The notes under the pieces were generated by a model that did not search any database, was not told where the DNA came from, and saw only the letters and a program-made list of their open reading frames with translations. Source: Pseudomonadota bacterium (GTDB lineage: Bacteria > Pseudomonadota > Alphaproteobacteria > Sphingomonadales > Sphingomonadaceae). From it: a stretch of DNA of 64,000 nt. The first letter of the stretch is position 1. Each line of letters starts with the position of its first letter. Where the stretch lies: the NCBI GenBank assembly GCA_039818985.1, contig JBCBSU010000001.1, positions 646,367-710,366 on the forward strand, in the 5' to 3' direction. This document shows positions 43,383 through 47,805 of this stretch, piece after piece. Position numbers and translations under genes: made by a program.

Positions 43383-44174
43383 ATGCGCAGCTTTCCGATC
43401 TTTCTCGAGCTTGAGGGACAGACGGTGATCCTGCTCGGCACCGGCGAGGCAGCGCAAGCCAAACGGCGACTCTATGCCCGCGCCGGAGCGGTGTTTACCG
43501 ATGACGAGACCGCCAGTGCCAAAATTGCCGTAGTCGCGCTGGAGGACGATGCCGAGGCGGAAGCGGCGGTGGTGCGGCTGAAGGCGCGCGGGCTGCTGGT
43601 CAATGCCGTCGACCGCCCGCATCTGTGCGACTATACCACCCCGGCCATTGTCGATCGCAACCCCGTGACTATCGCCATCGGCACTGGCGGCGCGTCCGCC
43701 GGATTGGCCAAGGCGCTGCGCCAGCGGTTCGAGGCGATGTTGCCACAAGGTCTGGGCCGCCTGGCGGCAGCTCTGGCCGAAGCGCGCAGCGCGATGAAGC
43801 TGCGCTGGCCCGATGGTCTGGCACGACGACGAGTGATCGACGCAGCATTGAGCGAAGGCGGGACGCTTGATCCGCTTGGCGATGCCGGCCCGGACGATAT
43901 TGTCGGCTGGATGCGGCAGGACGGACCGGGAAGCAGCGGCGGCGAATATGATATTCTTTTGACCAGCCACGACCCTGATGATCTGACATTGCGCCAGGCG
44001 CGACTGCTGGCCGGTGCGGATCTGGTGCTGCTGCATGGCGATGTCATGGCCGAGATTCAGGCAAGAATACGCGCCGATGCGATGGTGCTGGCGGCGGACA
44101 TACAAGCGGCGCAGACAGTGCGGGCCGAGCAGGATCAGGATGCGCTGATTATCAGCCTTTACGCGCCGGCCTAA
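43383..44174 (+). CDS. CysG N-terminal-like precorrin-2 dehydrogenase with a degenerate methyltransferase tail
   Basis: This 263-aa protein begins 13 nt after lysA. Residues 1-150 match the siroheme synthase N-terminal (CysG-B / Met8p-like) domain, which oxidises precorrin-2 and inserts iron. The NAD site reads ILLGTGEAAQAKRRLYARAGA, and the second signature reads AIGTGGASAGLAKALRQRFE. From about residue 188 the tail DPDDLTLRQARLLAGADLVL aligns by eye with the start of uroporphyrinogen-III methyltransferase ([22 protein letters not shown]), but the GxGPGDP glycines are missing and the domain stops after about 75 residues. The start ATG 43383 is chosen because the longer frame lies in lysA. 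Full siroheme synthesis would need a separate SUMT elsewhere. Confidence 0.82.
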   Translation: MRSFPIFLELEGQTVILLGTGEAAQAKRRLYARAGAVFTDDETASAKIAVVALEDDAEAEAAVVRLKARGLLVNAVDRPHLCDYTTPAIVDRNPVTIAIGTGGASAGLAKALRQRFEAMLPQGLGRLAAALAEARSAMKLRWPDGLARRRVIDAALSEGGTLDPLGDAGPDDIVGWMRQDGPGSSGGEYDILLTSHDPDDLTLRQARLLAGADLVLLHGDVMAEIQARIRADAMVLAADIQAAQTVRAEQDQDALIISLYAPA

Positions 44175-44611
44175 CCCTCGCGCTTCAGCAGGAAGTTCAA
44201 CCGTGCTGCGGCGATGATCTTGCGGCGGTCGAGCTGCCAGGCAATGCTTTCGACATTGGCAACCCGCTGGCCCAGTCGGGTGATCTTGCCGAGCGCAAAG
44301 GTGCGATGCTGGCGGCCACCGCGCATGAAATCGACAGTGATATTGACCGGCTTGAGCCGTGCTTTGGCACCGTCCTGGGCAATGCGCGTGCGCAGGGCCG
44401 AATAGGCGGCGATTTCGAGCAGACCCGAAAGCGCTCCGCCATGCAGAAAACCGGGGCGTCCGGTGACACCGGGGCCGAAATCATAACTGATCACCGGCAG
44501 ACCGTCCTCCAGCCCGGAAACAGTCATACCCATATGCTGCGCAAAGGGCGGCAGCATCGCGATGATGCTGTCGATGTCGGGGTCGTGTTCGGTCATGTCA
44601 TGCTGGGTCAT
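44171..44611 (-). CDS. PaaI-type hotdog thioesterase
   Basis: This 146-aa protein has the single hotdog fold of PaaI/YdiI-like thioesterases, which hydrolyse acyl-CoA thioesters. The core motif GRPGFLHGGALSGLLEIAAYSAL holds the catalytic/helix region (HGG), followed by VNITVDFMRGG. The ATG at 44611 overlaps the stop of the next upstream gene (ATGA), a paralogous thioesterase. The 3' end overlaps the CysG-like gene by 4 nt. Substrate is unknown. Confidence 0.88.
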   Translation of the reverse strand: MTQHDMTEHDPDIDSIIAMLPPFAQHMGMTVSGLEDGLPVISYDFGPGVTGRPGFLHGGALSGLLEIAAYSALRTRIAQDGAKARLKPVNITVDFMRGGRQHRTFALGKITRLGQRVANVESIAWQLDRRKIIAAARLNFLLKREG

Positions 44612-45054
44612 GATGCGGAGACATCCAGATTGATGAAGGTGCCGACGACATGCGCTACCGGGTCGTCCGGGTCGCCATCATGGGCGATACCGCGGACAAA
44701 TGCGATCGAACGCTTGACCTGATAGCATTCGCCGCGGCCATAAACGGTGGCGCGGGGTTTTGCTGCGCGCATATAGTCGACGCGCAGATCGAGCGTGACT
44801 TGCGGCCGAAACGTACCCAATTTGGTCCACACCGACAGGCTGGTGGCATTGTCCATCATGCTGATAATCGGGCCGGAGGCGAGGATGCCGGTCTCGACAT
44901 CGCCGACCAGCTCCTCGCGCCAGGGAAGCTTCAGCTCAACCCAACCCGTGCCATGGTCATGATATTCTAGGCCGATATGACCGCCATGGCCATGGCTGGA
45001 GATGGTTTCGGTAAACAATCTGGGGTCGAACTCGCCATTCTTCGCGTCCGCCAT
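44608..45054 (-). CDS. PaaI-type hotdog thioesterase (paralogue)
   Basis: This 148-aa hotdog protein is a distant paralogue of its downstream neighbour. Characteristic features are WVELKLPWREELVG, ILASGPIISMMDNATSLSVW, in which the usual HGG is replaced by ASG, and LDLRVDYMRAAKP. The replaced motif may mean altered catalysis. GGAGG lies 9 nt before the ATG at 45054, which is favoured over an upstream in-frame ATG. The two thioesterases share stop/start bases and may form a heteromer. Confidence 0.87.
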   Translation of the reverse strand: MADAKNGEFDPRLFTETISSHGHGGHIGLEYHDHGTGWVELKLPWREELVGDVETGILASGPIISMMDNATSLSVWTKLGTFRPQVTLDLRVDYMRAAKPRATVYGRGECYQVKRSIAFVRGIAHDGDPDDPVAHVVGTFINLDVSAS

Positions 45055-45220
45055 CACTGCCTTCCTCCCCGTGGCGCAGGCTTTCAAGCCGCCAGCCGTT
45101 CACATTCATGACGCAAAGTTCATTCGGCGCCATTGCCTCGCTCTCATATCCTGATCCGGGTCAAATCCAAGCGGTTTATCACAAACGGACCATTGAAAGA
45201 GCGAAAGGCAAAGGAGCAGC

Positions 45221-45358
45221 ATGATGACATTGCAGGATATTCCCGAATTTCCCGAGCTTGTCGGAAATTATGGCACGATGGCAAGCGAGGGCGCGAACAT
45301 GCTTGCAGGTGACGATATCTGGATCATCATCGCAATCTATGTGTTCGAGCATAATTGA
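45221..45358 (+). CDS. 45-residue peptide, candidate precursor peptide
   Basis: A short open frame of 45 codons starts at ATG 45221 (a second ATG follows at 45224). It has an excellent AAAGGAG site with a 4-nt gap. The N-terminal 30 residues are mildly acidic and Met/Gly-rich (LQDIPEFPELVGNYG, EGANML). The C-terminus carries GDD followed by a hydrophobic, aromatic stretch IWIIIAIYVF and ends EHN. That hydrophobic run is too short for a full membrane helix. The stop TGA overlaps the TTG start of the next gene. A leader plus modified C-terminal core would fit this shape, but no family is recognised. Confidence 0.6.
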   Translation: MMTLQDIPEFPELVGNYGTMASEGANMLAGDDIWIIIAIYVFEHN

Positions 45359-46353
45359 GCCGGACTGGTCGCGCGATGCAGCGCCAAGAAGAACTGGTGC
45401 ACTATGCCTCGGATGCGGCATGGCGACGTGCTCTGGGAGACAAGGCCCGGCAACATATGCAGGCATGGCGAACGCATCCGGCGCTGACGCCATGGCTGGA
45501 GCTGTTGGACGAAACCGGCGCTGCGGCCAGGACGGACAATGGATATTCCGCGCTGTGCAGGGCGGCACCGATTGTTGAGGACAGGGCGCTTGCAAGGGCA
45601 TTTCTGATACATTGGACGGCGGCGATCCGCGATGATCCGCTTATGGTTCCTGCATTATCGGTGCATATGGGGGCGCAGGGCACTTCGGCGATGCTGTATC
45701 GCAAGGGGTCGCTGACGCTCTCGCTGCTTAGCCTTCCGGGCCAGAAGCATGGCGATGCTACGGCCCCGATAAGCTTCGCACCCGGCGCGTCGGCCTTTGC
45801 CCCGGTCAACGATGCTGCCACCATGATCCAGAGCTGGCGCGAGACCAGCGCTTCGGAGGGTTTATGCGCCGTGCCTGAGGGCGAACCGATTGCGTTGGGT
45901 GATAGGGCCAGGGTGATCGATACTGACCGCTGCTCGGTCCAGCTCCATCCCACAGACAAGACGCAGCTGCTTTTGCGGCTGACATGGGTGCCGCAGGGTA
46001 GTAACGGGCTGCGCCAGCGCCATTATGCCGCGAGCGATGGACGTCCGCTGGGTACCACTTCTGCGGACTCGCAGACCACCCGGCAGATGCTGGCACTCTC
46101 GGCCTTGCGCGCGCTGCAGGCAAAGTACGCTATGCCTGCCATGCTGGCCATGACTGGCCAGCCGCTGGCACCGCTGCGCTGGCAGGCGCTGCGCGAATGT
46201 GCCGCTACCGATGTGATGGCGGTATTGCCCCGGGCGAAGCAGATGGCGCATCATGATCCCGATACCCGAATTCGCGCCATGGCAGGAGCACTGGTGCAGC
46301 AGATGGCGGAGTGCACGTCGTCTGCGGATAACGCCGCAGCGGATGCCGCCTGA
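45355..46353 (+). CDS. unknown protein, probable inactive relative of the following cupin-like protein
   Basis: This protein of about 332 aa is unrecognised. It starts at TTG 45355, whose last bases overlap the TGA of the 45-residue peptide gene. ATG 45376 is an alternative without any ribosome binding site. Residues about 1-105 are helical and residues 105-240 are beta-rich (AMLYRKGSLTLSLLSLPG, RCSVQLHPTDKTQLLLRLTWVP). The C-terminal 80 residues are again helical. The beta region lines up by eye with the next gene's product, but the HDH motif of the latter is replaced by YRK. The stop overlaps the next ATG (TGATG). Role unknown. Confidence 0.8.
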   Translation: MSRTGRAMQRQEELVHYASDAAWRRALGDKARQHMQAWRTHPALTPWLELLDETGAAARTDNGYSALCRAAPIVEDRALARAFLIHWTAAIRDDPLMVPALSVHMGAQGTSAMLYRKGSLTLSLLSLPGQKHGDATAPISFAPGASAFAPVNDAATMIQSWRETSASEGLCAVPEGEPIALGDRARVIDTDRCSVQLHPTDKTQLLLRLTWVPQGSNGLRQRHYAASDGRPLGTTSADSQTTRQMLALSALRALQAKYAMPAMLAMTGQPLAPLRWQALRECAATDVMAVLPRAKQMAHHDPDTRIRAMAGALVQQMAECTSSADNAAADAA

Positions 46354-47309
46354 TGGCGCTGGATATCAGCCGCGCCGCCGACAGCATGATGCGCCTCGAC
46401 GACGTGCTGGCAGCGTTTGATGCCGATCCGCCATCGGTGAGAAGCGAGGAAACGCGCAATCGCGCGGCGGGCATAATGGCGCGGCTGGCGCTCGATCGCG
46501 AATGTGTCGCCAATGCGGCGCTGGCAGAAATCGAACAGGGCTTTACTGATGACCGGATGATCGATGATGGCGCTAGCGATAATGCCAAAAGCGGCACCCT
46601 CGCTGACCGGCGCTATGGTCCACAGGTGCTGATGCTGGGTGAACCACGACCGGGGTGGTTTCTGCGCGCCAATATCTGGCCGGCACAGTCGGACTATGCC
46701 CTTCGCGCCAGCGGTGATACCGCCTTTTCCTATGGTCTGGCGCATGACCATAATTTCGACTTTCTCACCATCGGCTATCACGGCCCCGGCTATGTCAGCG
46801 ATTATTATGAGCAAGATTATGACGCGCTGGCGGGTTATCGTGGTGAGCCGGCGCGGTTGCGCTTTATCGAGCGCTCGGCGCTGCACAAGGGTCGGATATT
46901 GTATTATCGCAAACATCGCGATGTCCATTGCCAATATCCGCCCGAGCAATTGTCGATATCGCTGAACCTGATGTTCACCGCACCCGAGCAGCACTGGTAT
47001 GATCAATATCGCCATGATCTCGATAGCGACCGGATCGACGGCATAGTGAGCCATGGCGCAAGCGATGTGTTGCTGCGGCTGGCAGTGGAAGCAGAACTGG
47101 ATGAAGGACTGGAACTGGCGGAGACGGTGCTGCACCTGCACCCGAGCGGTCGGTTGCGCGGTGTCGCGCTCGACGCGTTGCACCGGCATCTAAGTGATGA
47201 GCCGCAGGCGCAAGCGCGATTGCTGGAACGCGCCATGCAATCCGACAGCGCCCTGGTGGCGGGGCAGGTCCGGCAACTGGCTTTGACGCACAGCCGGGAT
47301 GATCTATAG
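46353..47309 (+). CDS. unknown protein with cupin-like HxH metal motif
   Basis: This 318-aa protein is not one I can name. Residues 1-65 are helical. Residues about 85-210 form a beta-rich domain with H131-D-H133, a later His143, Glu153 and a KHRDVHCQYPPEQ motif with His188, His192 and Cys193. HxH followed by a distant His on a beta strand is the pattern of cupin-type metal sites, such as cysteine dioxygenases. The C-terminal 100 residues are helical and HEAT-like. The start ATG shares its A with the previous stop codon. Gene order peptide / non-metal partner / metal protein suggests a modifying complex. The activity is inferred only. Confidence 0.8.
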   Translation: MALDISRAADSMMRLDDVLAAFDADPPSVRSEETRNRAAGIMARLALDRECVANAALAEIEQGFTDDRMIDDGASDNAKSGTLADRRYGPQVLMLGEPRPGWFLRANIWPAQSDYALRASGDTAFSYGLAHDHNFDFLTIGYHGPGYVSDYYEQDYDALAGYRGEPARLRFIERSALHKGRILYYRKHRDVHCQYPPEQLSISLNLMFTAPEQHWYDQYRHDLDSDRIDGIVSHGASDVLLRLAVEAELDEGLELAETVLHLHPSGRLRGVALDALHRHLSDEPQAQARLLERAMQSDSALVAGQVRQLALTHSRDDL

Positions 47310-47346
47310 CCGCGGGCAGTTACCGAGCAACCGGAGCGCCCGTTCC

Positions 47347-47805
47347 ATGATGGATAATGCCGATATTTCAGGAATTGCCAGCCTGATCCAGCTCGCCATG
47401 GCCCCGGCTTTTCTGCTGGTGGCTATTGGCGCGATGCTGCAGCTGTTTTCGGCACGGCTGGGGCGGGTAGTTGACCGCTCACGCGAACTGACACGCACTC
47501 ATGCCGATAGCTGTGATGACGGTCGGCGACGCATTGTCTGTGAATTGCGCGGCCTCGACCGGCGGATGACGGTGGTCAATGGTGCAATTCTTATGGGCGT
47601 GTGCGGTGCAATCACGGTGGGCATCGTCATCGCCATGCTGTTCGTCACCGGTTTGGCGCAGATCGACCTGACGATCGCCATCTCGGTCTGTTTCATCCTG
47701 GCCATGGCCTTTGTGATTATCGGCCTGTCTCTGTTTCTGTTCGAGGTCCGGTTGGCCGAGAAGAACATCCATATCGACCGCGATTTCCTTGTCCTCGACG
47801 AATAG
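47347..47805 (+). CDS. DUF2721 membrane protein
   Basis: This protein of about 152 aa has three transmembrane helices (residues about 10-33, 80-103 and 112-135). A polar loop, ARLGRVVDRSRELTRTH, is the DUF2721 hallmark. Function is unknown. The first start option, ATG 47347, follows a GGAG-like site some 11 nt away; a second ATG is three bases later. It lies 37 nt after the cupin-like gene and could belong to the same transcript, though the family occurs in many contexts. Confidence 0.88.
   Translation: MMDNADISGIASLIQLAMAPAFLLVAIGAMLQLFSARLGRVVDRSRELTRTHADSCDDGRRRIVCELRGLDRRMTVVNGAILMGVCGAITVGIVIAMLFVTGLAQIDLTIAISVCFILAMAFVIIGLSLFLFEVRLAEKNIHIDRDFLVLDE

Follow-up and report, generated by a model that had tools for sequence, protein, structure and literature searches.

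A putative modified-peptide cassette encoding two proteins of predicted cysteine-dioxygenase fold in sphingomonads

The q1-q2-q3 unit and its borders

The window, the whole stretch of 64,000 nucleotides that was analysed, contains a three-gene unit, q1, q2 and q3, with all genes on the + strand. The sequence and the list of open reading frames place the three frames where a first-pass annotation had put them. The unit and its neighbors are as follows.

44608-45054, - strand: TE2, divergent thioesterase-family gene before the cassette (neighbor gene)
45055..45209, no strand: upstream boundary, between TE2 and the cassette (empty-site comparison with L145)
45210..45216, + strand: Shine-Dalgarno sequence AAAGGAG of q1 (sequence; family-wide Shine-Dalgarno enrichment before q1)
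45221..45358, + strand: q1, putative precursor peptide, 45 aa, or 44 aa if it starts at ATG 45224 (sequence; homologs; purifying selection)
45355-46353, + strand: q2, 332-aa frame counted from TTG (sequence)
45376..46353, + strand: q2, likelier extent from ATG (start by homology; AlphaFold2 model; fold match; no invariant His)
46353..47309, + strand: q3, 318 aa, predicted cysteine-dioxygenase-fold cupin, proposed modifying enzyme (AlphaFold2 model; fold match; conservation)
47310..47337, no strand: downstream boundary, cassette to DUF2721 gene (empty-site comparison with L145; Pfam DUF2721)
47338-47805: DUF2721 gene (Pfam DUF2721)

The AAAGGAG is separated by 4 nt from ATG 45221 and by 7 nt from a second in-frame start, ATG 45224, with which the starts of q1 relatives align. 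ATG 45376, 17 nt past the q1 stop, is the aligned start of the q2 homologs, and the commonest q1-q2 gap across the family is 15-16 nt. From these alignments q2 probably starts at ATG 45376 rather than TTG 45355, in which case q1 and q2 do not overlap, and the overlap of the q1 stop with a TTG start that had been proposed is probably not real. The overlap proposed for the q2 stop and the q3 ATG is present as TGATG, of 1 nt in the window and about 13 nt in most relatives. The mean Shine-Dalgarno scores, family-wide, are 3.8 for q1, 2.5 for q2 and 3.8 for q3, with 1.4 for random ATGs. The contrast drawn in the first-pass annotation between a strong site for the peptide and weak starts for its partners thus stands for q1 and q2 but not for q3.

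None of the three genes has an informative match in Pfam, NCBIfam, PADLOC, PHROGs, Rfam or a solved-structure sequence search. Among precursor models, q1 has no match in Pfam and only one in NCBIfam, to HscA (E 0.09), which is meaningless. DUF692 is not matched by any of the three, and a weak DUF693 match (E 0.26) is below its cut-off. The cassette genes match no PADLOC model of known anti-phage defence, and promoter and terminator scans gave nothing above shuffles. That no known RiPP family is recognizable, as had been noted from the sequence, still holds.

The surrounding genes in sphingomonads are housekeeping genes in a conserved order: argH, lysA, a Met8-like gene, usually a divergent thioesterase pair, and then q1-q2-q3. 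A first clustering of neighbors was swamped by antisense frames in the GC-rich DNA and was replaced by other neighborhood comparisons. The genes q1, q2 and q3 are present or absent together, since a relative without q3 (L145) has a clean empty site, in the order lysA, met8, TE1, TE2, 265 nt, DUF2721 and cytochrome c, with nothing of the cassette between TE2 and DUF2721. Neither in the window nor in the gene order shared by sphingomonads does a transporter, peptidase or immunity gene adjoin the cassette. The thioesterase-family pair that adjoins the cassette (44171-45054, with a 4HBT domain in the second gene) holds the same place in about 50 of the 80 loci fetched; this is probably plain synteny, and a metabolic link to the cassette is possible.

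Conservation, anatomy and spread of the peptide gene

Searches with the 45-aa q1 (tblastn) reveal a homolog in the same place in two congeners, with E values of 1e-16 and 2e-14, and weaker matches further out. The first-pass annotation had asked whether homologs of the two large genes lack an upstream small frame and whether the peptide is unconserved at the protein level, and the opposite is found in both respects. A q1-type small frame precedes q2 in 122/122 loci long enough to show one; the set comprises 124 loci, some of them the same genome fetched twice, and the contigs of L027 and L077 begin inside q2. Comparisons of all pairs were unreliable for dN/dS through saturation, and 17 disjoint pairs of close relatives were used instead. 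In all 17 pairs pN is lower than pS for q1, and the pooled dN/dS is 0.35 for q1, 0.36 for q2 and 0.29 for q3. By this conservation the 45-codon frame counts as a genuine gene. Among the 96 distinct small-frame peptides, the median length is 53 aa and the median net charge -5.

An alignment of 71 q1 sequences (A5), scored for column conservation, divides the peptide into four parts: a conserved block, a variable linker, a second conserved block and a variable tail. In the window the first three are the following.

45224..45277, + strand: proposed leader or recognition block, MTLQDIPEFPELVGNYGT (A5 conservation; putative role)
45278..45310, + strand: variable linker, MASEGANMLAG (low information content in A5)
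45311..45349, + strand: proposed core block, DDIWIIIAIYVFE (A5; putatively modified)

The family consensus of the leader block is LPKIDLxxLPDLDTxTGxFGS, with the K position variable in a looser form (LPxIDL), and G18 is invariant in 71/71 rows. The core block follows the pattern DDx9[YFW][DE], in which DD is followed mostly by Ile, Val or Met and then by [YF]x[YFW][DE]; a loose form of this pattern with the fixed nine-residue spacing is present in 85 of the 96 distinct peptides. The tail is HN in the window and is variable family-wide, often with PP. In sphingomonads, leader and proposed core are conserved to about the same degree. Cys is present in 8 of the 96 peptides and absent from the window peptide. 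Double-glycine (C39) processing at the conserved FG[ST] motif was considered and is not claimed, because the only C39-like domain of the genome looks degenerate, apparently without the catalytic Cys motif.

Searching 60 related genomes with q3 gave 13 loci. When the search was widened, 328 relatives of q3 turned up in named genome contigs, and 80 of these were retrieved. The cassette is present in 104 of the 299 sampled genomes of the window's family, or about one third. A search of the phylum gave rare positives in other classes, to which searches by order added more. These distant relatives keep the q2-q3 pair, and the three His of q3 described below are kept in gammaproteobacteria. In most distant loci q2 is preceded by a short frame whose end differs, and in the gammaproteobacterial ones this is usually another hydrophobic C-terminus; the small-frame calls here, in GC-rich DNA, rest on position and hydrophobicity and not on significant sequence similarity. 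The ends of these frames are as follows.

L139: IVITIAVVIL
L140: FVIPIIIILTKTL, with L178 similar
L176: ICVVMIVIPA
L177: LIVAAVIVLYSSPAN
L172: Gly/Val-rich

The small frame of L174 has LPELP near its N-terminus. No convincing small frame was found upstream of q2 in L173 and L181, and the one in L175 is doubtful. One genome (L143, 5374-10094) has two successive cassettes; in the second, two small frames stand in tandem, and their N-termini are related while their C-termini differ. Upstream of q2 in two loci of another alphaproteobacterial family (L138 and L141), the small frame encodes a conserved peptide of another kind, ADLDxELSAIGGYDxxSGMPCGxLxGPIRPxxRPE, which has Cys, Pro and Arg in place of the hydrophobic block.

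ABC transporter genes lie beside four gammaproteobacterial loci: L172, L173, L177 and L161, the Alteromonas stellipolaris plasmid CP013927. On this plasmid two small frames lie between an upstream exporter (HlyD, MacB-type ATPase and FtsX permease) and q2-q3, with an ABC ATPase, an ABC-2 permease and an HTH gene downstream. The exporter-linked cassette lies within a region (1-24675) of IcmW, DotM and TraG/TraD-like transfer genes. A Vibrio sp. ED002 plasmid (L181, 7267-8675) carries a short pair resembling q2-q3 that lacks the C-terminal helical part and is flanked by a Tn3-family transposase/recombinase and a restriction-modification pair (dcm, SinI-type).

Predicted folds of q3 and q2

Structure prediction, which the first-pass annotation had proposed for both large proteins, gives both a cysteine-dioxygenase-like fold. 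The AlphaFold2 model of q3 (86 sequences) has a mean pLDDT of 92.8. It matches 6u4l with Z 12.6 and rmsd 3.4 A over 163 residues; mercaptosuccinate and 3-mercaptopropionate dioxygenases tie with 6u4l as the best matches, and ADO and the plant cysteine oxidases are close behind (Z 10.6-11.9). The match spans residues 9-234 and barely covers a C-terminal helical layer. With high confidence q3 is predicted to be a cupin of the cysteine-dioxygenase fold. At the sequence level it has no match to solved members of the thiol dioxygenases. Its proposed metal site has two parts.

46743..46751, + strand: q3 H131-D132-H133, first part of the proposed metal site (invariant His)
46926..46928, + strand: q3 H192, third proposed metal ligand (invariant)

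H131, H133 and H192 are invariant in 86/86 q3 rows and in all 15 further relatives compared, from both alpha- and gammaproteobacteria. The HxH motif that had been read as a sign of a metal site in the last protein belongs to this invariant set. The SHY motif, which marks the small-molecule enzymes CDO and MDO (PMC10966181), was looked for in q3 and its pattern is present in 1 of the 86 sequences; S-x-[ST]-x-N is present in 85.

In loci L004 and L026 and genomes G008, G187 and G235 q3 ends early, near residue 273, at a stop within the profile match, so that part of the C-terminal helical layer is lost and the cupin and the three His are kept. In the metagenome-assembled genome of L032 (6001-6855) q3 appears to be split over two frames, by a frameshift or an assembly error.

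The AlphaFold2 model of q2 (93 sequences) has a mean pLDDT of 94.9 and matches 8vni, of the cysteine-dioxygenase group, with Z 12.7 and 3.5 A over 172 residues. The protein is predicted to combine a cysteine-dioxygenase-like fold with a C-terminal helical, HEAT-like layer. HEAT repeats by themselves, matched at E 0.029 and more clearly in the Alteromonas relative, were rejected as an explanation, as they account for the C-terminal parts only. Comparison of the q2 and q3 profiles links their second halves, with E 1.3e-5 for this single pairwise comparison and a probability of 81%. No His is invariant in q2, where the richest column is 75% His. Because three His are invariant in q3 and none in q2, q3 seems to be the catalytic member and q2 a dead, non-catalytic paralog of it. 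The two genes probably arose by duplication.

A candidate modified-peptide pathway

A short ORF conserved as protein and linked to candidate tailoring genes (122 loci, dN/dS 0.35, co-loss) is what is generally expected of RiPPs, and we consider it reasonably probable that q1-q2-q3 is a RiPP-type system not described before, in which an enzyme works with a recognition partner that is catalytically dead. The initial proposal of a peptide precursor with two partner proteins keeps in this reading the linked small frame and its conservation, and gives up the stop/TTG overlap and the weak q3 start. We infer the formation of a complex, the identity of the metal, the reaction, the residue modified, any cleavage and the function of the product. 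In outline, q1 would serve as precursor, and q2 and q3 would together, as a complex, bind its N-terminal block; q3, as a three-His metal-dependent oxygenase, would oxidize the C-terminal beta-branched block (DDIWIIIAIYVFE in the window); and q2, its metal ligands lost, would hold the leader or scaffold the complex.

Several features favor the RiPP reading. The peptide gene is under purifying selection, its frame is upstream of q2 in all 122 loci, and the cassette is absent as a unit. The peptide has two conserved blocks with a variable linker between them, and a variable tail. The three His of q3 are invariant from alpha- to gammaproteobacteria, its fold matches include the protein-modifying PCO/ADO group, and q2 shares the fold and a profile match without an invariant His. 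In distant loci one maturation pair accompanies varying peptide ends and sometimes export. Other features weaken it: sphingomonad peptides show about equal conservation of proposed core and leader, which is unlike most RiPPs; the sphingomonad cassette has no transporter, peptidase or immunity gene beside it; the only C39-like domain of the genome appears to lack its catalytic Cys motif; and the small frame is not convincing in L173 and L181 and doubtful in L175. An exporter or leader peptidase close by is common in RiPP pathways but is not a defining feature of them.

The main rival, which we regard as unlikely, casts q1 as a small subunit, structural or regulatory, of an enzyme formed by q2 and q3 that acts on another, small-molecule substrate, with its C-terminal strand added to the beta-sheet of the complex and left unmodified. 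The strong conservation of both q1 blocks in sphingomonads, the stable place on the chromosome among housekeeping genes without an exporter, and the small-molecule substrates of the fold relatives CDO and MDO would all agree with a subunit. But the C-terminus changes completely in distant relatives while q2 and q3 stay and the q3 His are kept, tandem different small frames lie beside one enzyme pair, and exporters and an HTH gene accompany the Alteromonas cassette. It is improbable that q1 is instead an unmodified signal or bacteriocin-like peptide, with q2 and q3 as binding, immunity or delivery factors. A strict three-His cupin site would be unexpected in an immunity or binding protein, and no export genes lie beside the sphingomonad cassette, although the hydrophobic C-termini and, in gammaproteobacterial loci, the tandem peptide genes and ABC transporters are in keeping with such a peptide.

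That q3 is a genuine thiol dioxygenase, oxidizing a Cys of q1 or a free thiol, is very improbable. Its best fold matches are indeed the cysteine, 3-mercaptopropionate and mercaptosuccinate dioxygenases, and three His are invariant; q3 is nevertheless not filed with them because the SHY motif is missing (1/86, against 85 with S-x-[ST]-x-N) and Cys is rare in the q1 peptides and absent from that of the window. Oxidation of Cys by q3 was rejected, as 88 of the 96 peptides have none. The reading of q1 as a chance or attenuator frame without peptide function, which the abundance of short frames in such GC-rich DNA might suggest, is refuted by protein-level conservation, purifying selection in 17/17 pairs and a constant position and ribosome site, and has practically no probability left.

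The RiPP reading has parallels in known systems. Pairs of an enzyme and a recognition subunit are known for RiPPs in MbnBC and TglHI, where MbnA is brought to MbnB by MbnC, and TglI probably plays this part for TglH (PMC10880893). The cassette resembles these in encoding together a short precursor, a metal-dependent enzyme and a non-catalytic partner, which in the known systems recruits the peptide (PMC10880893). The MNIOs (DUF692), however, are TIM barrels, whereas q3 is a predicted cysteine-dioxygenase-fold cupin, and the partner of MbnB or TglH is an RRE protein, whereas q2 appears to be a paralog of q3. Cysteine, 3-mercaptopropionate and mercaptosuccinate dioxygenases share with q3 the fold over the N-terminal helices and cupin barrel and the three-His pattern, as judged from sequence and predicted fold; unlike them, q3 has no SHY, an extra C-terminal helical layer, a linked peptide gene and mostly thiol-free peptides. 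The thiol dioxygenases ADO and PCO, of the same fold group as q3, act on protein substrates (PMC8503633). They oxidize an N-terminal Cys, whereas q1 has none. The Alteromonas plasmid cassette, with peptide genes, exporter, second ABC transporter and HTH gene, resembles the ABC-exported bacteriocin and RiPP clusters of gammaproteobacteria, but no known RiPP tailoring enzyme was recognized in it, and the sphingomonad version has no adjacent transport genes. The literature consulted, mostly open-access, holds no description of this combination of a peptide and an enzyme pair.

In its fullest form the RiPP reading is that a heteromeric pair of the cysteine-dioxygenase fold, one member catalytic with three His and the other a dead paralog, oxidizes a thiol-free, Val/Ile-rich peptide block, and forms a new class of modified peptide that is common in Erythrobacter/Novosphingobium-type bacteria and sporadic in gammaproteobacteria. 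This full statement is about evenly balanced between right and wrong. RiPPs are already known; the enzyme fold, the dead-paralog partner and the precursor family would be new. The reaction should also be new if the reading is true, because most of the peptides have no thiol. The three-gene unit looks like a bacterial pathway of a new kind, with an iron-type enzyme that would chemically alter a small gene-encoded peptide. The cassette is carried by 104 of 299 genomes of the family yet is invisible to the family libraries searched, so that the peptide and its role are so far untouched. If the reading is true, the cysteine-dioxygenase fold would join the folds that tailor gene-encoded peptides, and the design would be unusual in pairing the enzyme with a dead copy of itself.
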